A stretch of DNA of 64,000 nucleotides, taken from Actinobaculum suis. GTDB lineage: Bacteria > Actinomycetota > Actinomycetes > Actinomycetales > Actinomycetaceae. The stretch is taken from NCBI RefSeq assembly GCF_900102025.1, contig NZ_FNAU01000001.1:62001-126000 (forward strand). The letters run 5' to 3'. The notes below the pieces were generated by a model. The model saw nothing but the letters and a program-made list of their open reading frames with translations, was not told where the DNA came from and searched no databases. A program made the translations under genes and the position numbers. This document shows, one piece after another, positions 3,856 through 64,000 of the stretch. Each line of letters begins with the position of its first letter. Position 1 is the stretch's first letter.

Positions 3856-5354
3856 CTCTCCCTCTCTTTCGAGCTCGTAACGGCCGAGTCCGAAGCTTGC
3901 CCCGCCCCGGCCGCATTATTTTCATTCGACCCGCTCGCGGAATCTTCCGCGAAACTATTAGCGATCTGCCACACACCCGAACTGTGCGAGCCTTTGAGCA
4001 AAACCGCATCGCCGGCTCTGAGCATACCCGCTAGCTCGGCTTGTGCGCCGGAAGCGTTCGCCGCCTCCACCACGGTAATGCCATGTGTGCGGGCACTTTC
4101 CGCCAGCGGTGTGGTTTCCGCACCCACGGTGAGGAGATAGTCGACGCCGGCTGCTGCCAGTGGTGCGGCCAGGGCGCGGTGTTCGGCCGCGCTAGCTTCT
4201 CCTAGTTCAAGCATGGCACCCAGCACGGCGATTTTGCGCCGGCCGGTACCAATCCGGCCCAGCGCAGCAATACCAGCGCGCATGGAATCCGGGTTGGCGT
4301 TGTAAGAATCATCGATTACCAGGTATTTGCCTCCGCTTCGCCACTGCACGTCCATGCGGTGCGGGGAGGCGGCAGGAGCGGCCAGGCCGGCCGCGATTTC
4401 TTCTCCGGCCAAACCCAAAGCGTAGGCGCCAGCCGCAGCCGCCAAGGCGTTACTGACTTGGTGCGCGCCCACCAAGCCGAGTTTGACGTCTTGGGAGCCG
4501 TATCCGGCAGGGCCGCGGAGCCGGAAATGGGCTCGGTCGTTTTCATCGAGCCGCACATTTTCGGCCACGAAATCTGCTTCCGAGTTGCCGGCTGCCGAAA
4601 AACGCCATACTTTGCCGGGGGCCAGGCTGGCCATGGTGGCCACCCGCGGATCGTCGCAGTTTAAGACAGCGGTGCCACCGGGCCGCAAGTTGCTCACCAG
4701 TTCGGATTTGGCACGCGCCACGTTTTCAATACCGCCAAAAACGCCGAGGTGGGCGCGGGCTACCGCGAGAACCACTGCCACATCGGGAGGCGCAATGGAA
4801 CACAGGTAGGAAATATTGCCGATGCGGTCCGCTCCCATTTCGGCTACCAGGGTGGCGGTGTTTTCGTCTACCCGCAATACCGTGAGCGGCAAGCCGATCT
4901 CGTTGTTCAAGGAACCCGGCGGGGCTACTACTTCGCCGCGGCTTACCAGGATACGTGCCAGTAGATCTTTGGTGGTGGTTTTACCCACGCTGCCGGTTAC
5001 TGCCACTACGCGTAGCTGGGGGTTTGCGGCGCGAGCGAGCCGCAAGTTTTCCCGAGCTAATTTACCTAGGGCGGCCGGTACGTCTTCCACCACGATGAGG
5101 CGGCGCGGATCGGCGCCGCTGGCGGTAGCACATTCCGGATCGGTGGTGAGCACGGCGGCTGCGCCCGCTTGCAGAGCCGGGCCGGCAAACTTAGCCCCGT
5201 CCACGCGCGCACCTTTAATGGCAGCAAAAATTGCTCCCGGCGTGACTTCCCGGTTATCGCGCACCACTGCCCGGGCCCGCACATTTTCGTGGCCGCGAGT
5301 GGTTAAATAGCCTTCCGCGGCCTGCGCTACCTGGGCGAGAGTCATTTCAATCAT
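3849..5354 (-). CDS. murF: MurF, UDP-MurNAc-tripeptide--D-Ala-D-Ala ligase
   Basis: Adds the D-Ala-D-Ala dipeptide to the UDP-MurNAc tripeptide, completing the cytoplasmic precursor. 501 aa with the P-loop GSVGKTTT at 121-128, a central Mur ligase domain containing DDSYNANPDS, and a C-terminal domain with LKGSHSSG. The last ~30 residues are a Ser/Ala/Asn-rich tail beyond the fold. The ATG overlaps the murE stop by 4 bp (ATGA); a second ATG three codons on is also possible. Confidence 0.96.
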   Translation of the reverse strand: MIEMTLAQVAQAAEGYLTTRGHENVRARAVVRDNREVTPGAIFAAIKGARVDGAKFAGPALQAGAAAVLTTDPECATASGADPRRLIVVEDVPAALGKLARENLRLARAANPQLRVVAVTGSVGKTTTKDLLARILVSRGEVVAPPGSLNNEIGLPLTVLRVDENTATLVAEMGADRIGNISYLCSIAPPDVAVVLAVARAHLGVFGGIENVARAKSELVSNLRPGGTAVLNCDDPRVATMASLAPGKVWRFSAAGNSEADFVAENVRLDENDRAHFRLRGPAGYGSQDVKLGLVGAHQVSNALAAAAGAYALGLAGEEIAAGLAAPAASPHRMDVQWRSGGKYLVIDDSYNANPDSMRAGIAALGRIGTGRRKIAVLGAMLELGEASAAEHRALAAPLAAAGVDYLLTVGAETTPLAESARTHGITVVEAANASGAQAELAGMLRAGDAVLLKGSHSSGVWQIANSFAEDSASGSNENNAAGAGQASDSAVTSSKERERC

Positions 5355-51903: not shown

Positions 51904-51921
51904 TACTACAACGGTTTAGTA
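51904..51921. promoter_or_regulatory. LacI-family operator upstream of the AGE-family gene
   Basis: ACTACAACGGTTTAGT (51905-51920), flanked by T and A that extend the palindrome, has conserved ACTA/TAGT ends and a central CG. It matches the site at 59144-59159 at 13 of 16 positions. It ends 23 nt before the ATG. Confidence 0.7.
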
Positions 51922-51944
51922 GAGCATCGTCAAGGGAGACGCAT

Positions 51945-53495
51945 ATGGTGCCAACCGCCCCAGAAATTAGCGCTTGGGAAAAAAGTGAGTTTCGTGCTTT
52001 GGTAGCGCGCGCCGCCCAATCGCGCACCCGCTTCGGGTTTGGGTATTTAGATTATGACGGTCAGCTAGATCCTGACCACGACCTCGAATTATGGATCAAC
52101 TGCCGCATGACGCATGTTTTCTGCCTGGCAGCTTTGCGGGAACAGGCAGAAGCGGAACCGGGCCCGCATTCTGCCCGGCAGCTGGCAACTTTTGGGATTA
52201 AGTGTTTGCGCGAGCACTTCTTCGATACCGCCCACGGCGGGTTTTTCTCCCGCCTCACGGCCGCTACCGGTCTGCCTTCCGGCCCGGGCGCTGACCGCAA
52301 AGAAGCCTACGCCCACGCTTTCGTGTTGTTAGCCGCCAGTTCCGGCATTCAGGCGGGAATTACCGGTGCGGAAGAACTTTTCGCTTTAGCCTTCACGGCA
52401 CACGAGAATTTCTTCTGGGAAGAACAGTACGGCCTGGTCTGCGAATCTTGGGACCGGGCGTTCACGGAATCGGAAAACTATCGCGGCGTGAACGCGAATA
52501 TGCACACTTTGGAGGCAAGTTTGGCGGCCTGGGACGCCACTGGCAACCCGCGCTGGCTAGCCAAAGCCTCACAAATCATTAATTTCGTGCTCGGGCAGGC
52601 CGCCTGTACCGGCTGGCATATTCCAGAGCATTTCAGCGCCACCTGGCAGCCCCTCCCCGATTTCAACCGCGATAATCCCGCCGATCCCTTCCGGCCCTAC
52701 GGTTATACGCCCGGGCACGGCGTGGAATGGTCGCGGTTGATTTTGCAGTTCTGGGCCGCGGTAGAAACTCATGCCCAGCAGGCTGCGGCGCTCGCGGATA
52801 CTGCGGGTGCGGTAGCGACGTCGAACAAAGTAGCAATATCTAGCGAAGCGCCAACACCTAGCGGGACGGCCCGCAGTGACGCCGATACTGGCTCCCCCTT
52901 CGGCAAGTTACCGGCGCGGGTTTTTGCGCAGCTTCCCCAGCTGGCACACCAATTATTTGCCACCGCGATTCGCGACGGATGGAACATAGACGGTGCTCCC
53001 GGTTTCGTGTACACGATCGCGCCGGATCGGAAACCGATCGTGCATGAACGCATGCATTGGACAGTCTGCGAAGCAATTAGTGCCGCCGCCGCTTTTGCTA
53101 CCTACAGTGAAACCCACCCGGAAATGATTACAACCGCGAGCGCGGTAAGCCACGTAGTAGCGGACGCAACCAGCGACGCCGCCCCGATTTCCGAGGTTGC
53201 CCCGGTTTCCGAGGTTTCCCCGATTTCCGACGCCGCACCGATTCTGGATCCCGCCCCGGTTCCGGAAGCTGCCTATTTCCGGGATTGGCACCGGCAGTTT
53301 ATTGCGTATGCCCGTACCTATTTGGTGCACGAGCCAGGTTTATGGATCCATGAATTGGATGCACAAAACCAGCCTTCGCGTATCACTTGGCCGGGTAAAC
53401 CCGATGTATACCATGCCGCCCAGGCCATGCTCATGGATGGGTTGCCGCTCTCCCCGTGCTTCGCGGGTGCCCTAAAGCTCACCGCGCAGGCCTAA
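51945..53495 (+). CDS. AGE-superfamily sugar isomerase, probable D-mannose isomerase (YihS-like)
   Basis: Cytoplasmic (alpha/alpha)6-barrel aldose-ketose isomerase, 516 aa. Motifs RMTH (54-57), KEAYAHAFVLLA, YRGVNANMHTLEA (about 179-191), WHIPEHF and GYTPGHGVEWSRL follow the mannose/sulfoquinovose isomerase branch rather than GlcNAc 2-epimerases. Next to mannosidases, mannose to fructose is the best guess; sulfoquinovose isomerase is the alternative. It is about 100 residues longer than relatives because of two low-complexity inserts (about 280-330 and 395-440, the latter an SEVAPVSEVSPISDAAP repeat). AAGGGAG precedes the ATG. A LacI-type operator lies just upstream. Confidence 0.83.
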   Translation: MVPTAPEISAWEKSEFRALVARAAQSRTRFGFGYLDYDGQLDPDHDLELWINCRMTHVFCLAALREQAEAEPGPHSARQLATFGIKCLREHFFDTAHGGFFSRLTAATGLPSGPGADRKEAYAHAFVLLAASSGIQAGITGAEELFALAFTAHENFFWEEQYGLVCESWDRAFTESENYRGVNANMHTLEASLAAWDATGNPRWLAKASQIINFVLGQAACTGWHIPEHFSATWQPLPDFNRDNPADPFRPYGYTPGHGVEWSRLILQFWAAVETHAQQAAALADTAGAVATSNKVAISSEAPTPSGTARSDADTGSPFGKLPARVFAQLPQLAHQLFATAIRDGWNIDGAPGFVYTIAPDRKPIVHERMHWTVCEAISAAAAFATYSETHPEMITTASAVSHVVADATSDAAPISEVAPVSEVSPISDAAPILDPAPVPEAAYFRDWHRQFIAYARTYLVHEPGLWIHELDAQNQPSRITWPGKPDVYHAAQAMLMDGLPLSPCFAGALKLTAQA

Positions 53496-53521
53496 ATCGG
53501 ACTCTCCGTGCAGGCCTAAAT
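53486..53521. repeat. 24-bp duplication carrying the AGE stop codon
   Basis: GCAGGCCTAAAT occurs at 53486 (containing the real TAA) and at 53510. The remaining gap to 53751 holds no gene and no clear operator. Confidence 0.9.
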
Positions 53522-53751
53522 ACTGGCGTAAGCCAGACTTTATAGCCCTTAGCTTGGCGGCGCGGTTGCTTGCTGCTACTCGCCTCGGAGCGGTACCAAG
53601 CTAGCTCGCGGGCCGATCTACCACCGGCCATATTGTCATGCCACTACCTGCAAAGTTGCCGGATAGTTGCGGCGGTCTGGCCACGTGAATCATTTTCCGC
53701 TCACCGATTCCCAATTCCCTAATTTCTCGTTATTTATTTAAGGAACATTCG

Positions 53752-56700
53752 ATGAGAAAGACACCAAAACATCGGGGGTATAAAGCCGTGGCCGCAGGCC
53801 TGGCTTTTGCCCTCGGCGCCTTTGCTATACCAAACGCCTTTGGCGCAGATTCTTACCCACCACGCGGGGAGGCTAGCCCGGGAAGTGCCCAACCCGTCGT
53901 CGCCGGATATCGGGTACAAGATATTCGCGATTGGAGCCCGGAAACAGATCCATTCTCCGCGCAGTTGCGCGCTACCGTGCCCTTGCAGTCTCGCATCGAC
54001 CATAATCCAGCAACTCAGGTACGTCCCGAACTTGATGGCAAAGCCCAGGTTATGCTCATGCAAGGAGATTATGGGAACTCTTTCTTCGGTTCCACCACCT
54101 ACAACAATACTTTTGGGGACCACACGCTGAATTTCTGGCAGTATGCCGATTATTGGGCACCTTGGCACGGGGCGGCTTCGAAGGGGGTCCCGCAGTCGCT
54201 GTATGACCCGCCCACCTCTGATTGGCGAAACCGCGGGTTTGAGTTCGGGGTGCTTTCCATTCCGACGCCGCAATACACTAACGCCGCTCACCGTAATGGA
54301 GTGAAGTCTATTGCCGTCATCTATTTCGATCCCTTCTTCCGGCCCGGCCTTACTTTCTCCGAAATGTTTGATAAGGATTCGGAAGGTTACATTATTGGCC
54401 GCAAACTCGTGGAAATGGCTAAATACTATGGCTTTGACGGCTACTTCCTGAACCAGGAAGAACGCGGGAGCGACCCGAGCGAGTTCAAGCCGCTCATGGC
54501 CTATTTAACGGCCCAAGGATTGTGGACACAGTGGTATGACGTGAATTCGAGCTTTGATGAGGCCAAGGCTTCCTGGCTGAAAGACAAAGAGCACGGGCAG
54601 ATCCACAATTCTGTGTTCGTGAACTATGGCGGCGACCCACATAGTATGCGTAGCTTTGCGGAGAGCCACGGTTATGACCCTTACGCGGAAGTGTTTGCGG
54701 GCATTGAAGCGAATCAAACTGGTTTTGCCAGCCCCGGTAATGTGGACCGCTCTTTCACTTCGGCCGAGAATCATTCACCGGTTACTTCTTTGGCACTGTT
54801 CACCCCTTCCGATATGTATCAGCGGGGTTTGGATGACGACATTAAAACCGCCACCGGCCGTACCTCTCCCGAGTTCCCCTTCATGCAGCAAGACGAATAT
54901 CAGTGGATGGTGGCGCAGCGTGAACGTATGTACTTCTCTGGGCCGCGCCAGGATGTGACCCAGGCAGGGGCGGTAGAAACCCGCCCGGAAGTGGGCGTAA
55001 CGAAGTCCGGTTGGCCGGGCGTAGCCGATTTTACGCCGGCGCGTTCTGTGATTAGCGGGCAGAATTTCGCCACCGATTTTTCGACCGGGAAAGGCCTGCG
55101 TTCCTACACGGACGGCCAGGTTTCTAATGATTCCGCGTGGTCGGATATGGGCGCGCAGGCAATTCTACCTTCCTGGCAGTGGTGGATAACCAATGACGGC
55201 GCCGATACGAAGATGCAAGCGGATTTCGATTACGGTACCGAACCGCGTTTCCAGCTGAATGGTACGCCTACCACTCCGCCTTTCACGCCGCGCGGAGCTT
55301 GGGCCGGCGGTAATTCCCTGGCCTGGTATGGAAACCTGCACGGGACTAGCACGCTCCGGCTGTTCAAAACCGATCTGGAAGTAACTGCGGCGTCGAACCT
55401 GGCCCTTACTTGGCAAAACAGCACTCCAAAACCGGAGGCCACCGCGAGCGAAAACAGCTCCGAAACCGCGCCGGCACCGCACCCGCAACTGGCGGTACGT
55501 CTAGACTTTGCGGGCGCTACCGCAGCTAATGCGGAAGCAAGTGCCGCAGGTGCCGCAGCAGATGACGCAGCAGGTGCAGCAGGTGACGCAGCAAATAACG
55601 CAGCGATTTTGCCTTTGCCCGCCGCGCCAGCCGGTGACGGCTGGCAAAACGCTACCCTTGACCTTTCTAAGTATGCTGGCAAACGCATTTCTATGATCAG
55701 TTTGGTAGCTACCGGTGAACAGGACGGCTTGCAGGTGAATCTGGGGGCCTTGGCGCTCAGTAACGGCCAAGCAAAGCCGGATGCGCCTGCTGGTTTGCGG
55801 ATAGATGAACTGCATAGCGATGGGCAAATGGTTGCTTCTTGGCAGCCGGGGAACTTCGCGAATGTTGACTACTATCTGCTTGAAGGCGTGGATGCTTCCG
55901 GCACCGTACACCGCCTCGGGAAAACTTACGGCGATACGTATTACGTGAAGAATCTAGGCTTGAGCGGTAATTGGACCCTGCGGCTCACCGCGATTGGCAA
56001 GGATGGGAGCCGTTCGGAGCCTTGTGACCTGGCGGTTCCGGGCAAGCACATGCCCCAAAAGCTAACTTATGATTCGGGTTTGGATCCACAAAAGGCTTTC
56101 CAGCAGGCTACAAAGCCCGGTGAGGTCACGCTTTCGTGGGAGGCGCCAAGTGCGGGCGCACCCGAAAACTACACCGTAACTTTGGAAAATATTTATGCTC
56201 CCGAACTGTATGCGGGCAAGGCTTCCGTGCAGGTGCCGGGGACGCAAACTACGGTGACTTTGCCGGCTCCGCCGGAAGGTCTGCCGTTCCGGGCTACGGT
56301 GAGTGCGGTACAAGCTGATGGTAGTAGCGCGGCAACGAGCTTGCGCGGCCGCTACCATGACGCTTACGCCAAGCCGCTGGCTCAACAGGATCTGGTTGTA
56401 CAGGCCGATTCTTTCCATTTGCGTAATCCTTCTGCTCAGGATTGGCAAACCTTGGATTTGGCCGCGCCGAATGACCATGGGGAAACTTTGCGTGCCACGC
56501 GTGGTTCTTCCGCGGACGAGAACGCGCGGCTAACGCGCGAACGTGAGCTTGCCTCGCCGGTAAGCATTTTGCTTACTGATTATGCGGGTAATGTTTCGGC
56601 ACCGGTAACGGTATCTCCGGGTGGGCAGATCGACGACGCCGCCGCGCCCGAGATTTGGGTGAGCCCGTGGACGGAGCAGAAGATTGGCGCGGGTGGAAGT

Positions 56701-57576
56701 CTCACACCGATAACAGTGCGGGCTGTGGATAACTTCTCCGCCCCAGAGGTGGCGGTGAGTATTGAACCAGATCTGCAAGATGGTGAGGCTAACGCGAACG
56801 CAGCGCCGGAGGCTACGGCTCCAGCTACGGATACTGCCACTGCTACACCTGCGCAAAATACTCGGTCCGCGCGGGCGAAGCGGGCCGTACCGCAGGCTGA
56901 AAAGCTGGCTGATACGGAAAAACTCGCAGGAACAGAAGGTGCTACAGATGCAGGGGACAACCAGGTAGTCACAGCAGCGCCAAGCGCCGATGCTACTGGC
57001 ACTGATACGACTGCGGATGGGGCAACCGGAGATTCTAATTTGGCGGCTTATGGTTTGTCCTATGATCCGCAGACCCGCACCGTTAGCGGCGCTCCGAATT
57101 GGGAGGGCGTGCGGATCTTGCGGTTCACCGCAACGGACGCGGCCGGTAATAAGGCTTCGGTTACGGTACGAATCGAAGCGTCCGGCCCTGCTCCCGCGGT
57201 ACCTCCTGCGCCGGTCACTCCACCAAGCACCGAACCGAGCACCGCGCCAAGTACCTCGCCGACCACGAAACCGAGCACCGCGCCAAGTACCTCGCCGACC
57301 ACGAAACCAAGCACCGGACCGAGCACCGAGCCGAGCATGGCACAGAGCACCGAGCCAAGTACCGCGCCGACCGCGCAACCAAGTTCGGCGTCTGCTGATA
57401 AGGCAGGCCAAAAGCCTGCCGGTAGCAGCCGCGCGGACCGTACTGAGCAGGGCAAACGGGGCCGGCTTTCGTTTACTGGAACGCAGGTTGGTGTAGGCAT
57501 TTTTGCCGGTTTGATGCTTCTGGCTTGCGGCGGGGCTGCCATTTGGTGGCGGCGGGCGCGCGAAACGCGGGAGTAG
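53752..57576 (+). CDS. secreted, wall-anchored GH85 endo-beta-N-acetylglucosaminidase
   Basis: Cleaves the chitobiose core of N-glycans. 1274 aa: signal peptide (about 1-32), GH85 catalytic domain with WQYADYWAPWHG, VIYFDPF and the active-site pair Asn234/Glu236 in DGYFLNQEERGS, accessory beta-sandwich and Fn3-like regions from about 330 to 1000, an Ala-rich stretch near 580-620, and a Ser/Thr/Pro repeat stalk (STEPSTAPSTSPTTKPST type). The C-terminus has LSFTG (about 1239-1243), a hydrophobic helix and basic tail, the layout of a sortase substrate though with Ser in place of Pro. ATG follows AAGGAA. Closest functional models are Endo-D/Endo-M type enzymes. Confidence 0.9.
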   Translation: MRKTPKHRGYKAVAAGLAFALGAFAIPNAFGADSYPPRGEASPGSAQPVVAGYRVQDIRDWSPETDPFSAQLRATVPLQSRIDHNPATQVRPELDGKAQVMLMQGDYGNSFFGSTTYNNTFGDHTLNFWQYADYWAPWHGAASKGVPQSLYDPPTSDWRNRGFEFGVLSIPTPQYTNAAHRNGVKSIAVIYFDPFFRPGLTFSEMFDKDSEGYIIGRKLVEMAKYYGFDGYFLNQEERGSDPSEFKPLMAYLTAQGLWTQWYDVNSSFDEAKASWLKDKEHGQIHNSVFVNYGGDPHSMRSFAESHGYDPYAEVFAGIEANQTGFASPGNVDRSFTSAENHSPVTSLALFTPSDMYQRGLDDDIKTATGRTSPEFPFMQQDEYQWMVAQRERMYFSGPRQDVTQAGAVETRPEVGVTKSGWPGVADFTPARSVISGQNFATDFSTGKGLRSYTDGQVSNDSAWSDMGAQAILPSWQWWITNDGADTKMQADFDYGTEPRFQLNGTPTTPPFTPRGAWAGGNSLAWYGNLHGTSTLRLFKTDLEVTAASNLALTWQNSTPKPEATASENSSETAPAPHPQLAVRLDFAGATAANAEASAAGAAADDAAGAAGDAANNAAILPLPAAPAGDGWQNATLDLSKYAGKRISMISLVATGEQDGLQVNLGALALSNGQAKPDAPAGLRIDELHSDGQMVASWQPGNFANVDYYLLEGVDASGTVHRLGKTYGDTYYVKNLGLSGNWTLRLTAIGKDGSRSEPCDLAVPGKHMPQKLTYDSGLDPQKAFQQATKPGEVTLSWEAPSAGAPENYTVTLENIYAPELYAGKASVQVPGTQTTVTLPAPPEGLPFRATVSAVQADGSSAATSLRGRYHDAYAKPLAQQDLVVQADSFHLRNPSAQDWQTLDLAAPNDHGETLRATRGSSADENARLTRERELASPVSILLTDYAGNVSAPVTVSPGGQIDDAAAPEIWVSPWTEQKIGAGGSLTPITVRAVDNFSAPEVAVSIEPDLQDGEANANAAPEATAPATDTATATPAQNTRSARAKRAVPQAEKLADTEKLAGTEGATDAGDNQVVTAAPSADATGTDTTADGATGDSNLAAYGLSYDPQTRTVSGAPNWEGVRILRFTATDAAGNKASVTVRIEASGPAPAVPPAPVTPPSTEPSTAPSTSPTTKPSTAPSTSPTTKPSTGPSTEPSMAQSTEPSTAPTAQPSSASADKAGQKPAGSSRADRTEQGKRGRLSFTGTQVGVGIFAGLMLLACGGAAIWWRRARETRE

Positions 57577-57877
57577 CTAAACCGCTAGTGGGCTAGAAAG
57601 TATTTGTATCCGATTTCCCGTTGGCCGCCGGTTGTGAGCTCAGTTGAGCTTGCGCCGGCGGTCAGCTTTTGCGGCGCGCCTGCGCTTTACCCAGCTTCCC
57701 CGCTTGCGGCAAGCGGCGTGCGGCAAGCGGCGTGCGGCAAGCGGCGTGCGGCACGCGGTTTTGCGGCACGCGGTTTTGCGGCACGCGGTTTTGCGGCATG
57801 CGGTTTTGCGGCATGCGGTGTGTGCGGCAAGCGGCGTGCTCGCTTGGCTTCGCCGCGTGCAACAGCTGGAGGAAAGT
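57577..57877. repeat. 14/15-bp tandem repeat array between GH85 and lacI genes
   Basis: Three TGCGGCAAGCGGCG units (57705, 57719, 57733), three TGCGGCACGCGGTTT units (57747, 57762, 57777), then two TGCGGCATGCGG(T)-type units and a final TGCGGCAAGCGGCG at 57823. The array fills the gap between convergent genes; no terminator was recognised there. Confidence 0.95.
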
Positions 57878-58909
57878 TTAGGCAGATCGAGCGGAGGCCG
57901 GCGAAACGTAACCGGCGGTGGAATCGCGGATTACCAAGGTGCCGCCGGCTTGTGCCTGGGTATGGGTAGTGCCGGTGTCGATGCCCCGGGCAAGAATTTG
58001 TGCGGCTTTGGTACCGAGCAGGCCGGGGTCGCGCGAAACTGCGGTAAGTGGCGGAGTGACTACGCGGCTAATCAGTGAGTCTTCATAGGAGACCACGAGT
58101 ACGTCTTGCCCGATTTTGAGGTCGTGGCGGCGGAGTGCTTCTAGCCCGCCGAGCGCCAATACTTCGTTATCGAAAATGATGGCGTCGGGGCGGCGCGCGG
58201 CGGAAAGCAAGCGGATCGTGGTAGCAAAACCGGCTTGTTCGGTAGCATCGGTTCCCCCGGAAACTACCGCTTCAATTCCGGCACGGCCAGCTTCGTAACG
58301 TAAAGCCTCCGCACGTTCCGCGGTGTGGAAAAGATCCGCCATGCCGCTCACGTAAGCAACGCGGTGGGCGCCGCGTGCCAACAGGTGGCTGAGGATCGCG
58401 TGCATCACGTCCCCCTCATCAATGGTGATCGCGCTGAAACCAGCAAACTCGTGGCCCACGAATACGGCGGGGATGCGCAGTTCTTTGAGTACTTCTACGC
58501 GCGGATCGTCAATACGCGGATCGACGACGATCACCCCGTCTACTCTCCCCTGCCCGTACCAGCGGTGGTAAGTTTCTACTTCTTCGGCTACGTTGTGCCC
58601 GGAACGCAAAACCAGGTCCAGCTCATACTCGGTAAGCCCGCTTTCCACCCCGAGAATGAATTTGAAGAAGAAGGTCTCGGTGTTAATGGATCTTTGCGGG
58701 CGGGCAATGTAAAGACCAACGGCGTCGGCGCGGGATTTGGAAAGGGCCCGCGCATGCTGGTTAGGAACCCAGCCCATAGTTTTCGCGGTTTTTAAAATCC
58801 GCGCGCGCGTAGCTTCGGAAATTCCCGGCTTGGAATTGAGCGCAAAAGATACTGCGGTTGGCGAAACGCCAACCGCTTCGGCAATATCTCTAATGGTCGG
58901 CCTGGCCAT
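57878..58909 (-). CDS. LacI-family transcriptional regulator
   Basis: 343-aa repressor: helix-turn-helix at about 4-24 (TIRDIAEAVGVSPTAVSFAL), hinge helix with PNQHARALSKSRAD, and a periplasmic-binding-protein-like sensor domain (GLYIARPQ, DGVIVVDPRIDD, PPLTAVSRDPGLLG). It lies in the sugar locus and diverges from the GH38 gene, so it should control that locus through the CG-centred palindromes at 51905 and 59144, with a mannose or N-glycan sugar as likely inducer. ATG with AGAGGGA upstream. Confidence 0.93.
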   Translation of the reverse strand: MARPTIRDIAEAVGVSPTAVSFALNSKPGISEATRARILKTAKTMGWVPNQHARALSKSRADAVGLYIARPQRSINTETFFFKFILGVESGLTEYELDLVLRSGHNVAEEVETYHRWYGQGRVDGVIVVDPRIDDPRVEVLKELRIPAVFVGHEFAGFSAITIDEGDVMHAILSHLLARGAHRVAYVSGMADLFHTAERAEALRYEAGRAGIEAVVSGGTDATEQAGFATTIRLLSAARRPDAIIFDNEVLALGGLEALRRHDLKIGQDVLVVSYEDSLISRVVTPPLTAVSRDPGLLGTKAAQILARGIDTGTTHTQAQAGGTLVIRDSTAGYVSPASARSA

Positions 58910-59139
58910 CGCGCTATGTTCCCTCTACTCTCTACTCTCGCCGTGCCCGCTACCATGTGCAAACATTCCCGCTCAAGCGTACAAATACCTGCTTCTACCC
59001 GCAGGTTCGTAGTTTCTAATGGGCCCGCTTAGGACTCGCTAATTACCACTGATTGTACCCACAAAAACTAAGCGGTACAGCGGCGTCCGGCCAAGCGAAA
59101 TTCTCCGGAAAATACTTCGAATTACCATCCCGAAAACAC

Positions 59140-59168
59140 TTGCACTAAACCGCTTTAGTCGCTACGCT
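59140..59168 (+). promoter_or_regulatory. promoter of the GH38-GH5 operon with LacI operator in the spacer
   Basis: TTGCAC (59140-59145) and TACGCT (59163-59168) are 17 bp apart. The palindrome ACTAAACCGCTTTAGT (59144-59159) overlaps the -35 and fills the spacer, so bound repressor would block RNA polymerase. The operator matches the one before the AGE gene. Confidence 0.7.
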
Positions 59169-59171
59169 CAT

Positions 59172-59452
59172 ATGGTAGATGCCAAAGGAGTCATCAATCT
59201 TCCACCCACATTTAGCGTTGCGACAATCCGGCCGTAACAGCTGTTATTTCCGCCTTACCCAGTAGCTTCTACGCGAAAGAGTAACAGCGGCAAAACTACA
59301 GAAAAGCGGGAAACGGAATTCCCTTACGGTCAAAGGAGGGCCGCGTATCCCAGGAAGGCACAAAAGCCTTTCGGGAAACTGTTTACCCCTTTTGCATCCC
59401 GGCGTTCTATCCGCCTTTCTCAGTAATGACCAGCAGATACGGGGCATCACAA
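59172..59452 (+). other. ~280-nt leader region before the GH38 gene
   Basis: No gene of note; a 21-codon open frame starts at 59172 (ATG) but has no ribosome-binding site. It contains a Shine-Dalgarno-like AAAGGAGGG at 59331 with no start codon after it, and a hairpin GGAAGGC/GCCTTTC at 59353-59372. The long leader could carry post-transcriptional control or hide a second promoter. Confidence 0.4.
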
Positions 59453-62400
59453 ATGCACGATAATCGCAGTATTTTGGAAGGCCGCGTGCGGCGCGCGCTC
59501 GCGGAGAAGATTCTCCCGGCCTGTTATACAGAACTTACCGACTTAGACGTAACCTGCTGGCAGGTGCCAGATCCGGAAGCGAAACCGGTAACTCCAGCGC
59601 AGGTCCCGCCTTTCTCGCAGTTCCGTCCGCTTGCCATTGGTGAGTATTGGGGTCGGGCGTGGGAAACCGTGTGGATGCGGATGCGAGCGCAGACCGCGCC
59701 GCTTGCTCCCGAAATCAAGGAACTGCTTGGGCTTGGTGCCCGCACAAGCACTGCTGATACCGCGAGCGCTGACGGTGTTTGCGGGCCGGATAGTACGTGC
59801 GGGCCGGATAGTACTTGTGCTGCTGACCAGGTTGAGATCCTGGTGAACCTGGGGTGGCAGGACCACTCCCCTGGTTTTCAGGCGGAGGGCCTGGTACACC
59901 GCACGGTTGTCCCGGAGGGAGCCCCGGCGGGCACAGACCAGGCACATATCGGCCCTACCGTGAAGGCGATCAATCCGAAGAATTTGTGGATTCCTGCTCG
60001 CAAGGTTCTCAGCGCTAGCGGCGATATTGATTTCACGATCGAAGCGGCAGCGAACCCGATCTTGCTTGATGTGCCGCCTTTCCAAGTTACTTACGAGGGC
60101 GATATTCGTACTTCTTCTGCCCGCCCGCTTTACCAACTGGTGCAGGCCAGCGTGGTTTTGCGGCACGGCCAGGTTTATCAGCTCGCGCTCGATATGAGCG
60201 TGCTGCACGAGATGGTGGCGGCAAAACCGGAGCTGGACGGGCATGACTGGTTGATTTTGCGCACGCTTTCTGCGGCTTTGGACCAGTTGGACCTGGCTGA
60301 TATTCCGGCTACCGCTGCCCGGGCCCGGGAACTATTGCAGCCGGTGCTGACCACTCCTGCCCATGTGGAAGCACCGCAGATTTACGCCGTCGGGCATGCG
60401 CACATCGATTCGGCGTGGCTGTGGCCTTTGCGGGAAACGCCCCGCAAAGTGAACCGTACTTTGGCCAATGTGGTCAATCTTTTAGAGCAGGGCGAAGACA
60501 TGTACTTCGCTTTCCCGGCCGCCCAGCATGCCGCGTGGCTAGCCGAGGAAGATCCGGAATTGTTCGCCCGGGTACGTAACTGGGTGGCAAAGGGCCGGAT
60601 TGTGCCGGTCGGTGGCATGTGGGTGGAATCGGATGCGGTGCTTCCCGGTGGGGAGGCTATGTGCCGCCAGTTTGTGGAAGGGCAAGCTTTCTTCGAAGAA
60701 GCTTTCGGGGTGGAATGTAGCGAGGTGTGGCTGCCCGATTCCTTCGGCTATTCGGCGGCTTTGCCACAAATTGCGCGGGAAGCTGGAATCAAGCGGTTCT
60801 TGACGCAAAAGATTTCTTGGAATCAGGTGAATGCTTTCCCGCACCACACTTTCTTGTGGGAAGGTATTGACGGTTCGCGGATTTTCACGCACTTCCCACC
60901 CGCAGATACTTATGGTTCCGATGTTACGGGGGCGCAAATCCGTCACGCCGTGATTAATTCTCGCGATAAGGGCCATACTTCGGTTTCCTTGCTGCCCTAC
61001 GGTTACGGGGATGGGGGCGGTGGGCCAACCCGCGAAATGCTGGGCCGCCTAGCCCGGCAGCGTGATCTGGCCGGTGCTCCGCGGTTGCTTTCGGCTTCCC
61101 CGCATGATTTCTTCGACCGGGCTATCGAAGCCTACGAAAAGCCGCCGGTGTGGGCCGGGGAACTCTACCTGGAATTGCATCGGGGCACGTTCACTTCGCA
61201 TGTGGCTACCAAACGCGGCAACCGGGAAACGGAAGCTTTGCTTAGGGAAACCGAGTTGTGGTGTACGACGGCGGCCGTGCGCGGCCTGATGGAATACCCC
61301 TACGCAGAGCTGCGGGCTTTGTGGCGGCAAGCTTTGCTGTGCCAATTCCACGATATTCTTCCCGGTTCTGCCATCTCCTGGGTCTACCGCGAAGTGGCCG
61401 GTATTTACGCCCATCTGCGCGAGCGTTGCGAAGCCTTAACAAAGCAGGCTTTGCAGGCTTTGACGAGCCAGGCAGCAAATGAAACTAGCGGCCGGGCTGA
61501 AACTAGTGGCCTGGCTGAAGCTGGCGCCCCGGTTGAAACTGGTGCCGCGACTGCACCCGGAACCACAGCAGAGCCCGGTGCCCCGACCGGTACGGTTTTG
61601 CGGGCCAATGCCACTTCCTTTACGCAAGATGGCGTGCCGCCTTTCGCGGTGGGCTACGTGGGCGCGCGCGAAAACTCGGAAGTTGGGCCAACTGCAAACA
61701 ATTTGGAGGCCGGGCCGGATTATTTGAGCAACGGGCTGCTAACTTTGCGTTTTGCGGACGGGGCTTGTGTATCTTTGCAAGACCGTTCCGGGCGCGAATA
61801 TATTCCGCGGCAAGAAGCGGCCGGCACTTTCCAGGTGCATCAAGACTTCCCCAATATGTGGGATGCCTGGGATATTGATCCTTTCTATCGCGGTTCGGAA
61901 GAACGCCTAGACCTGCAGTTTGGCGGCACCGAATTTTTGCAGGCTACTAATTCCGCGGAATTAGCTGGCTCCGGGGTGGCTGCACAAACCGCGGAATTAG
62001 TAAGCACCGGAATAGCCGCCCAAACCGCGGAATTGGTTGGCACGGCGGTGCAGGCAGTTTCTACGGCCCGGTATGGCGATTCTGAGTTGCGCATTACGTG
62101 GCAGTTGCGGCCCGGAGAAGAGTTCGCGCGCGTACGCGTGGATGCTGATTGGCACGAACACGAAAAGCTTCTCAAACTGGCATTCCCGGTTCGGATTCAC
62201 ACCGATCGGGCCCAATACGAGACGCAGATGGGTTATATCGAACGGCCCACTCACACGAATACGTCTTGGGATGCGAGCCGTTTCGAAGTTTCCTGCCACC
62301 GCTGGTTGCGGCTAGCAAATGCCGGGGCTAGCCTCGCGATCGCTAATGATGCGACCTATGGTTGGGATATTACGCGCCATCAGGAAGGCCGGCGCAGCAC

Positions 62401-62959
62401 GTATTCGCGCGTGCGGGCAACCCTGCTGAAATGCGCCCGGTATCCCGATCCGGAACAAGACCAAGGCCAGTTCTCCTGGAATTTCCGGCTCCACCCGGGA
62501 GCCAGCGTGGAGGCGGCAATTGCTGATGGTCAAGATATTTGCTTGGGCACCCGCTATGTTTCCGGCACCCCGGCAGGCCCGATAGCTCCAGCAGGCCCGG
62601 CAGTCGTGGCAGCTCCAGCAGCCCCAACAGCCCAGGTAGGCCCAGCCGGCCCGGCAGTCCCGGCGGCAAGCCCGGTAGCTCCGCTCTTCCGCGTGGAAGG
62701 GGCCGTAGTCGAATCGGTGGCCATGGCTCCCGACCGTTCGGGCAACGCCGTCGTACGCATTTATGAGGGCCGCGGTGCTACTAGCCACGTAACCATTCAA
62801 GCTCCCGAGTTTTCCCGCGCCTGGTGTACCGATTTACGGTACCGCAGCCCGGAAGAATCCGGCTATGCAGGGCCGGAAATACGGTGGGATGGTAAGGCCT
62901 GGCAGCTAGAACTCGCCCCCTTCCAGATCGCGACGATTCGATTCGAGCGTGCACTATGA
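59453..62959 (+). CDS. GH38 alpha-mannosidase
   Basis: Cytoplasmic exo-alpha-mannosidase, 1168 aa, no signal peptide. N-terminal MHDNRSILEGRVRRAL, then the catalytic domain with zinc-binding GHAHIDSAWLWP (about 314-325) and nucleophile Asp428 in WLPDSFGYS, followed by SWNQVNAFPHHTF and FTSHVATKRGNR, then the beta-sandwich domains. It is about 150 residues longer than relatives owing to inserts: a Cys-containing GPDSTCGPDSTC repeat near 108-122, an Ala/Thr/Pro insert near 680-720, AAQTAELV repeats near 845, and an Ala/Pro/Gly repeat near 1040-1080. ATG at 59453 matches relatives' MHD start; the frame is open to 59426. Its stop overlaps the GH5 start (ATGA). Confidence 0.93.
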   Translation: MHDNRSILEGRVRRALAEKILPACYTELTDLDVTCWQVPDPEAKPVTPAQVPPFSQFRPLAIGEYWGRAWETVWMRMRAQTAPLAPEIKELLGLGARTSTADTASADGVCGPDSTCGPDSTCAADQVEILVNLGWQDHSPGFQAEGLVHRTVVPEGAPAGTDQAHIGPTVKAINPKNLWIPARKVLSASGDIDFTIEAAANPILLDVPPFQVTYEGDIRTSSARPLYQLVQASVVLRHGQVYQLALDMSVLHEMVAAKPELDGHDWLILRTLSAALDQLDLADIPATAARARELLQPVLTTPAHVEAPQIYAVGHAHIDSAWLWPLRETPRKVNRTLANVVNLLEQGEDMYFAFPAAQHAAWLAEEDPELFARVRNWVAKGRIVPVGGMWVESDAVLPGGEAMCRQFVEGQAFFEEAFGVECSEVWLPDSFGYSAALPQIAREAGIKRFLTQKISWNQVNAFPHHTFLWEGIDGSRIFTHFPPADTYGSDVTGAQIRHAVINSRDKGHTSVSLLPYGYGDGGGGPTREMLGRLARQRDLAGAPRLLSASPHDFFDRAIEAYEKPPVWAGELYLELHRGTFTSHVATKRGNRETEALLRETELWCTTAAVRGLMEYPYAELRALWRQALLCQFHDILPGSAISWVYREVAGIYAHLRERCEALTKQALQALTSQAANETSGRAETSGLAEAGAPVETGAATAPGTTAEPGAPTGTVLRANATSFTQDGVPPFAVGYVGARENSEVGPTANNLEAGPDYLSNGLLTLRFADGACVSLQDRSGREYIPRQEAAGTFQVHQDFPNMWDAWDIDPFYRGSEERLDLQFGGTEFLQATNSAELAGSGVAAQTAELVSTGIAAQTAELVGTAVQAVSTARYGDSELRITWQLRPGEEFARVRVDADWHEHEKLLKLAFPVRIHTDRAQYETQMGYIERPTHTNTSWDASRFEVSCHRWLRLANAGASLAIANDATYGWDITRHQEGRRSTYSRVRATLLKCARYPDPEQDQGQFSWNFRLHPGASVEAAIADGQDICLGTRYVSGTPAGPIAPAGPAVVAAPAAPTAQVGPAGPAVPAASPVAPLFRVEGAVVESVAMAPDRSGNAVVRIYEGRGATSHVTIQAPEFSRAWCTDLRYRSPEESGYAGPEIRWDGKAWQLELAPFQIATIRFERAL

Positions 62960-64000
62960 GATTCGGAGTCAATTACACGCCGCGGCAAGGCTGGTTCTAT
63001 TCCTGGCTAGATTTCGACCGCGCGCAAGTGCAAGCAGATTTCACGGCGCTCAAAGAAATCGGGGCGGATCACGTGCGGATTTTCCCGCTCTGGACGCTCC
63101 TGCAACCCAACCGGACCTATATCCGTCCGCAAGCCATTCGTGATGTGGTCAGCGTGGCGGAAGTCGCCGACGATCTGGGGCTGGATATTTTCGTGGACGT
63201 TTTGCAAGGCCACCTTTCCTCCTACGATTTCCTACCTTCGTGGGTGCTCAGCTGGCACGAACGCAATATTTTCACCGACCCGCAAGTCGTTGCGGCCCAG
63301 CAAAACCTGATTACCACTTTGGCAGGCGCGCTCGCCGATATTCCGCACGCGCGCGGGCTCAGCCTAGGTAACGAGATTATCCAGTTCGCTGCCTCTCGCC
63401 ACCCTTCCCCGCAAGCGCTAACTTCCCACCAGGCCCGTACCTGGCTGGAAACGCTCTACCGGACGGCAAAGGCCGCCTGGCCGCACGGGATCCACACGCA
63501 TTCTTTTGATGACGATTTGTGGTTTGCGCCCGACCAGCCCTTCACCCCCGAACAGGCCACCGCGATAGGAGATTTGACCACCGTCCATTCCTGGATTTTT
63601 GGCGGCGTAGGCCCAGCATACGGGGCCGACGCCCCCGAACTCGCCTGGTTCGCTCGCTACCTGTGCGAAGTTGCTAATGCTTGGGCAGAGATCTTTGATT
63701 GCGCACCGGAGGGGCGCGGTTTGTGGCTACAAGAACTAGGAGCGCCACTAAATTACCTGCACGACGACGCCGCAGCCGCCACTTTCCTAACCAAAACTAT
63801 CGACTCCCTTTTGGGCGCCCATGGCGGCGGGCCTACCCCGCACCTGCAAGCAATCACCTGGTGGTGCTCCCACGATGTGGATCGCCACCTCGCAGATTTC
63901 CCAGAAGTGGAATACGGCCTCGGGCTTTTCAACAGCGCCGGAGAACTAAAACCACAAGGCCAGGCTTTCCAAAAAGCGATCACCCAGTGGGGCACCCGTG
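62956..64000 (+). CDS. GH5-family beta-mannosidase-like glycosidase (truncated by window edge)
   Basis: 348 codons are visible. The TIM-barrel enzyme begins MRFGVNYTPRQGWFYSW and has the GH5 acid/base Glu140 in LSLGNEI and probable nucleophile Glu260 in LWLQELGAP, then WWCSHDVDRHL and LGLFNSAGELKPQG, which lie near the end of such proteins. No signal peptide, so cytoplasmic. It resembles the GH5_18 beta-mannosidases of bifidobacteria, which split Man-beta-1,4-GlcNAc left after alpha-mannosidase action; that subfamily call is an inference from context and motifs. It is translationally coupled to GH38 by a 4-bp overlap. Confidence 0.82.
   Translation, partial: MRFGVNYTPRQGWFYSWLDFDRAQVQADFTALKEIGADHVRIFPLWTLLQPNRTYIRPQAIRDVVSVAEVADDLGLDIFVDVLQGHLSSYDFLPSWVLSWHERNIFTDPQVVAAQQNLITTLAGALADIPHARGLSLGNEIIQFAASRHPSPQALTSHQARTWLETLYRTAKAAWPHGIHTHSFDDDLWFAPDQPFTPEQATAIGDLTTVHSWIFGGVGPAYGADAPELAWFARYLCEVANAWAEIFDCAPEGRGLWLQELGAPLNYLHDDAAAATFLTKTIDSLLGAHGGGPTPHLQAITWWCSHDVDRHLADFPEVEYGLGLFNSAGELKPQGQAFQKAITQWGTR

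Follow-up and report, generated by a model that had tools for sequence, protein, structure and literature searches.

The window analysed here (64 000 nucleotides) corresponds to bases 62001–126000 of a 305-kb contig in the 2.2-Mb draft genome of Actinobaculum suis. Genes encoding a sugar isomerase of the AGE superfamily, a GH85 endoglycosidase, a LacI-family regulator (on the opposite strand), a GH38 alpha-mannosidase and a GH5 enzyme are present in this order at 51904–64000, the last one being cut by the window edge (Table 1). These are the five genes named in the original prediction. Four were recognized by Pfam with scores far over the cut-off; the GH5 gene product, which gave no Pfam match, was placed in subfamily 18 using phmmer. 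All the enzymes carry the expected catalytic motifs. The locus is larger than what is visible in the window: genes for a substrate-binding protein (SBP), two permeases, a GH20 enzyme and a PfkB kinase follow directly downstream with tight spacing in L002, the stretch running past the window (L002:2357 is 64356 in extended coordinates). An importer had been expected beyond position 64000, and the SBP and permease genes were found there (L002:2409–5945).

Table 1. Genes and operators of the locus. Positions are those of the window, or of L002 where indicated.
Feature	Position	Strand	Length	Domain, motif or remark
Operator O1, ACTACAACGGTTTAGT	51905..51920	+		25 bp upstream of the AGE start codon; two mismatches to ACTAAACCGGTTTAGT
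AGE-superfamily sugar isomerase (YihS/mannose-isomerase type)	51945..53495	+	516 aa	PF07221
GH85 endo-beta-N-acetylglucosaminidase	53752..57576	+	1274 aa	PF03644; secreted
LacI-family regulator	57878..58909	-	343 aa	PF00356 and PF13377
Operator O2, ACTAAACCGCTTTAGT	59144..59159	+		Divergent LacI–GH38 gap; one mismatch to ACTAAACCGGTTTAGT
GH38 alpha-mannosidase	59426..62959	+	1177 aa	GH38 N/mid/C; no apparent signal peptide
GH5_18 beta-mannosidase, Man-beta-1,4-GlcNAc type	62956..64356	+	466 aa	phmmer; overlaps the end of GH38
SBP, lipoprotein	L002:2409-3713			Lipobox LTAC
Permease	L002:3968-4945
Permease	L002:4938-5945
GH20 enzyme	L002:5945-7834			GGDE motif; no apparent signal peptide
PfkB kinase	L002:7997-9037			Nearest to fructokinases

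The GH85 protein, the only one encoded in the genome, was recognized by PF03644 with 143.3 bits (E=1.5e-41). The structures of Endo-A and Endo-D both matched at about 1e-31; they score alike, and the specificity of the enzyme does not follow from similarity. The catalytic pair N234/E236 lies within FLNQE; here, as for the GH38, GH20 and AGE motifs, the residue roles are those established for the families. The protein begins with a signal-like N-terminus, contains a Pro/Thr/Ser-rich stalk and ends with LSFTG, a hydrophobic segment and RRARETRE. This C-terminus resembles a sorting signal of the LxxTG type and not the canonical LPxTG, so that the wall anchoring originally proposed is likely only. 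Between the stop codons of the GH85 and LacI genes (57704–57834), the 15-bp unit TTGCGGCAAGCGGTT is repeated in tandem about nine times.

The GH38 N, mid and C Pfam domains scored 293.7, 99.7 and 138.1 bits, respectively. Bacterial alpha-mannosidase structures (7ufs/7ufr) matched the protein with an E value of about 1e-178, and the motifs HAHID, WLPD438SFGY and QFHD are present. For the adjacent GH5 enzyme, a likeness to bifidobacterial beta-mannosidases had been suggested and was borne out by phmmer against Bifidobacterium longum (BlGH5_18, 2.4e-94; BlMan5B, 1.5e-88). The best structural matches were 6gvb from Cutibacterium acnes, the closest characterized protein (E=1.5e-110), 7lr7 (1e-104) and 7lqx (2.4e-94). 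E140 and E260 are conserved together with the R, H and W residues of the active site, and the catalytic residues of the GH38–GH5_18 pair are intact. The corresponding catalytic pair of CaMan5_18 is E140/E259 (PMC6160142). The AGE protein was recognized by PF07221 (282.5 bits, E=6.7e-84) and matched the PDB entries 2afa and 2rgk at about 1e-69. It contains the His motifs NANMH, GHGVEW and DVYH. Its score against the D-mannose isomerase model NF051846 was 349.6 bits, under the curated cut-off of 600, and the match is split by two low-complexity insertions. The GH20 enzyme, the sole one of the genome, is distant from the GH20s of other loci (22–34% identity). The PfkB kinase scored below the curated fructokinase cut-off.

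Ala/Pro/Thr/Ser-rich, partly tandem-repeated insertions interrupt the otherwise conserved sequences of cytoplasmic enzymes encoded here. They are located near 53174–53243 in AGE and at 61480–61540, 61953–62043 and 62562–62664 in GH38; GH20 (L002:5945-7834) and TruB (L002:11246-12577) also carry such insertions. TruB has 443 aa, of which about 311–372 are unaligned and absent from the 338-aa TruB of a congener.

The search for accessory genes covered the genome one family at a time. A UgpC/MsiK-type ATPase gene above its curated cut-off is located at C28:42766, with a NagA-like gene just upstream; a second NagA-like match lies at C22:22695. Genes for NagB (slightly under its curated cut-off), an N-acetylmannosamine-6-phosphate epimerase and a ROK kinase are grouped on contig C28. 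The search for family GH125 gave no match in the genome. Contig C26 encodes a secreted protein of 1647 aa, in which two sialidase-type matches were found (L151:4664-9607). The NagB, epimerase and ROK kinase genes of C28 form an apparent sialic-acid cluster (L150:5900-14000) with a peptide-type SBP and permease and a 496-aa sialidase-like open reading frame. The original prediction had put forward a candidate complete N-glycan locus and advised looking past position 64000 for an importer and GlcNAc genes. Function, gene order and importer stand, and GH20 and PfkB were found there as well; the set becomes complete only when the NagA-like and NagB proteins and the shared ATPase, whose genes lie elsewhere in the genome, are counted.

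Beyond PfkB lie a macrodomain gene and then, on the other strand, a 227-aa open reading frame, truB, brnQ, rbfA and infB. These genes are unrelated to the locus and ancestral. The matching stretch of a congener (G001) consists of ribF, an OsmC-like gene, the macrodomain gene, the 227-aa open reading frame, truB, brnQ, rbfA and infB; none of the nine locus genes was found at this site, and GH5_18 and GH85 had no match anywhere in its genome. As the congener lacks the block at the same ribF–truB site, the locus stands as a self-contained block that spans about 19.2 kb, from 51829 to about 71040 in the extended numbering. The macrodomain gene (L002:9081-9749) was rejected as a member, since it occupies the same place in the island-free congener. 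Either this species gained the block or the congener lost it. GC content (0.589 in the island; 0.574 and 0.596 in the flanks) does not point to recent transfer, and no exact repeats of at least 10 bp common to both island boundaries were found. Among 149 relatives, the distribution of GH5_18 is patchy (27) and that of GH85 patchier (9). The infB-rbfA-truB-ribF-pnp stretch is normally compact. In both congeners it contains brnQ, the 227-aa membrane-protein-like open reading frame and the macrodomain gene (L137, L002:9081-14434); brnQ as listed overlaps the truB and rbfA reading frames.

The two promoter regions of the locus each contain a near-perfect copy of the palindrome ACTAAACCGGTTTAGT. 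Sites with at most two mismatches to it were expected 0.01 times in the window; two were found, O1 and O2, and these are the only such sites genome-wide. No site with at most three mismatches precedes GH85, SBP, GH20 or PfkB in this genome. A third site (C22:4023, three mismatches) was discarded because it falls among AT-rich repeats that separate other genes. These repeats are of the type GGTTTAAATTCGGCCCC (L135:1500-1710, C22 about 4020–4230) and lie between peptide deformylase-like and TetR-like genes. A scan for promoters and terminators performed no better than chance.

In other actinobacteria, a site with at most three mismatches was found upstream of LacI in 35 of 58 distinct loci, compared with 0 or 1 for 278 palindromes of equal composition used as controls; these loci are related and partly duplicated, so they are not independent events, and the controls share this relatedness. 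The motif precedes GH38 in 29/82 cases, SBP in 29/78, AGE in 7/13 and GH85 in 6/30, and was never found before PermA, GH20 or PfkB in the loci of relatives. LacI orthologues occupy the same position in these loci, with a near-invariant recognition region (AVSFALN in most). The recurrence of the operator before AGE and GH85 supports their membership of a single regulon, so that the isomerase and the endoglycosidase would belong to the pathway on grounds beyond adjacency. We propose tentatively that N-glycan catabolism, including GH85 and AGE, is under a LacI regulator with operator ACTAAASCGNTTTAGT in actinobacteria ranging from Actinomycetaceae and Propionibacteriaceae to Streptomyces; Bifidobacterium loci also have a site before GH38. 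Such a regulon would be undescribed so far. The novelty of operator and regulon is uncertain: no description of a ACTAAASCGNTTTAGT regulon was found in the part of the literature on LacI regulons, bifidobacterial regulons and the pathway that was covered. PMC9599254 gives NglR, a NagR paralogue and not this LacI, as the regulator predicted to control complex N-glycan genes in bifidobacteria.

From 323 genome matches, 80 loci were kept for comparison. LacI, GH38, GH5_18, SBP and both permeases occur together in 62 of them, and 26 of these 62 have GH85 nearby. The core made up of LacI, GH38, GH5_18 and importer is widespread and experimentally established elsewhere. Streptomyces loci of the N-glycan core, which Higgins et al. 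reportedly described in 2021, are ordered LacI-SBP-PermA-PermB-GH5_18-(GH85)-GH38, often including GH85; no relatives of AGE, GH20 or PfkB were detected near them. The locus of Arcanobacterium pluranimalium (L033/L054) contains GH85, LacI, GH38, GH5_18, SBP and both permeases at 49–72% identity, with operators before GH85 and GH38. AGE, GH20 and PfkB were not detected in that stretch. Its GH85 gene flanks LacI on the other side, is inverted and has its own operator, whereas the GH85 gene of A. suis has none; co-transcription with AGE is therefore assumed here. As in A. suis, the C. acnes locus has GH38 then GH5_18, together with GH20, an ABC importer and a regulator, but a GH18 candidate endoglycosidase replaces GH85, and AGE and PfkB are not described there. 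Hydrolysis of Man-GlcNAc by the C. acnes GH5_18 beta-mannosidase was assayed, and the GH38–GH5_18 gene pair was noted in Arcanobacterium haemolyticum (PMC6160142).

We consider with good confidence that the block serves the catabolism of N-glycans and is controlled by a single LacI-family regulator; the enzyme activities and the substrate class given below are drawn from homology. Surface GH85 would cut the chitobiose core of glycoprotein N-glycans, releasing Man(n)GlcNAc that may or may not carry antennae. The SBP and the two permeases would take up this product, probably powered by the shared MsiK/UgpC-type ATPase. In the cytoplasm, GH20 may remove antennary GlcNAc and GH38 alpha-mannose, and GH5_18 may split the remaining Man-beta-1,4-GlcNAc. 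Since GH85 would leave one GlcNAc on the protein, the imported glycan would have a single core GlcNAc and GH20 would not be needed for chitobiose. Mannose would be converted into fructose by AGE and the fructose phosphorylated by the PfkB kinase; GlcNAc would enter glycolysis via the ROK kinase, NagA-like and NagB proteins. LacI is predicted to repress the AGE(-GH85) and GH38-to-PfkB transcripts through the two ACTAAACCGGTTTAGT-type operators until a sugar of the pathway binds.

Which N-glycans are used is less clear. The best structural matches of the endoglycosidase include Endo-A, a GH85 enzyme known for acting on high-mannose glycans. The B. longum operon for high-mannose N-glycans, reportedly described by Cordeiro et al. 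in 2022, likewise couples release by an endoglycosidase and import to cytoplasmic GH38 and GH5_18. It also has an AGE mannose isomerase. GH38, GH5_18 and the importer of A. suis are related to that system, and the same pathway could be tuned to high-mannose glycans, GH85 releasing Man5-9GlcNAc for uptake by the importer and GH20 serving other GlcNAc-containing oligosaccharides. The review PMC10154615 gives three GH38 genes and one GH125 gene for the B. longum operon, whereas the A. suis locus has a single GH38, its genome no GH125 and its operon a cytoplasmic GH20. Because of the single GH38, the lack of GH125, the GH20 and the large secreted sialidase-like protein, trimmed complex or hybrid glycans are somewhat favoured as the substrate over large high-mannose ones, and the tuning to high-mannose glycans appears less probable.

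The AGE protein might be another aldose–ketose isomerase or epimerase, acting for example on sulfoquinovose or GlcNAc and standing beside the locus by chance. Its score under the NF051846 cut-off and the presence of sulfoquinovose isomerase among its nearest structures are consistent with this. We consider it unlikely, given the operator before AGE here and in relatives, the position of AGE beside LacI and the PfkB kinase in Arcanobacterium-type loci, and the lack of a sulfoquinovosidase gene in the locus. Other mannosides too are substrates of GH38 and GH5 enzymes, so that plant beta-mannan or yeast alpha-mannan could be imagined as the substrate instead of N-glycans. This is highly improbable: the GH85 family acts specifically on the chitobiose core of N-glycans, the GH5 enzyme has GH5_18 enzymes as its nearest characterized relatives and matches endo-mannanases at 2e-5 at best, and a GlcNAc-releasing GH20 is encoded in the same operon.

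N-glycan catabolism is thus the reading retained: the products of the gene set very probably cleave sugar chains from host glycoproteins, take them up and break them down as fuel. The main fresh detail is the shared operator, a modest addition which overturns no long-standing question. AGE isomerases would be linked to the pathway by co-regulation and not by proximity alone, and the conserved operator may offer a simple route to N-glycan genes in other actinobacteria. A host-glycoprotein foraging pathway described in Bifidobacterium, Cutibacterium and Streptomyces would be extended to another lineage of the Actinomycetaceae, where a single regulated unit would cover all steps between the surface endoglycosidase and fructose phosphate.
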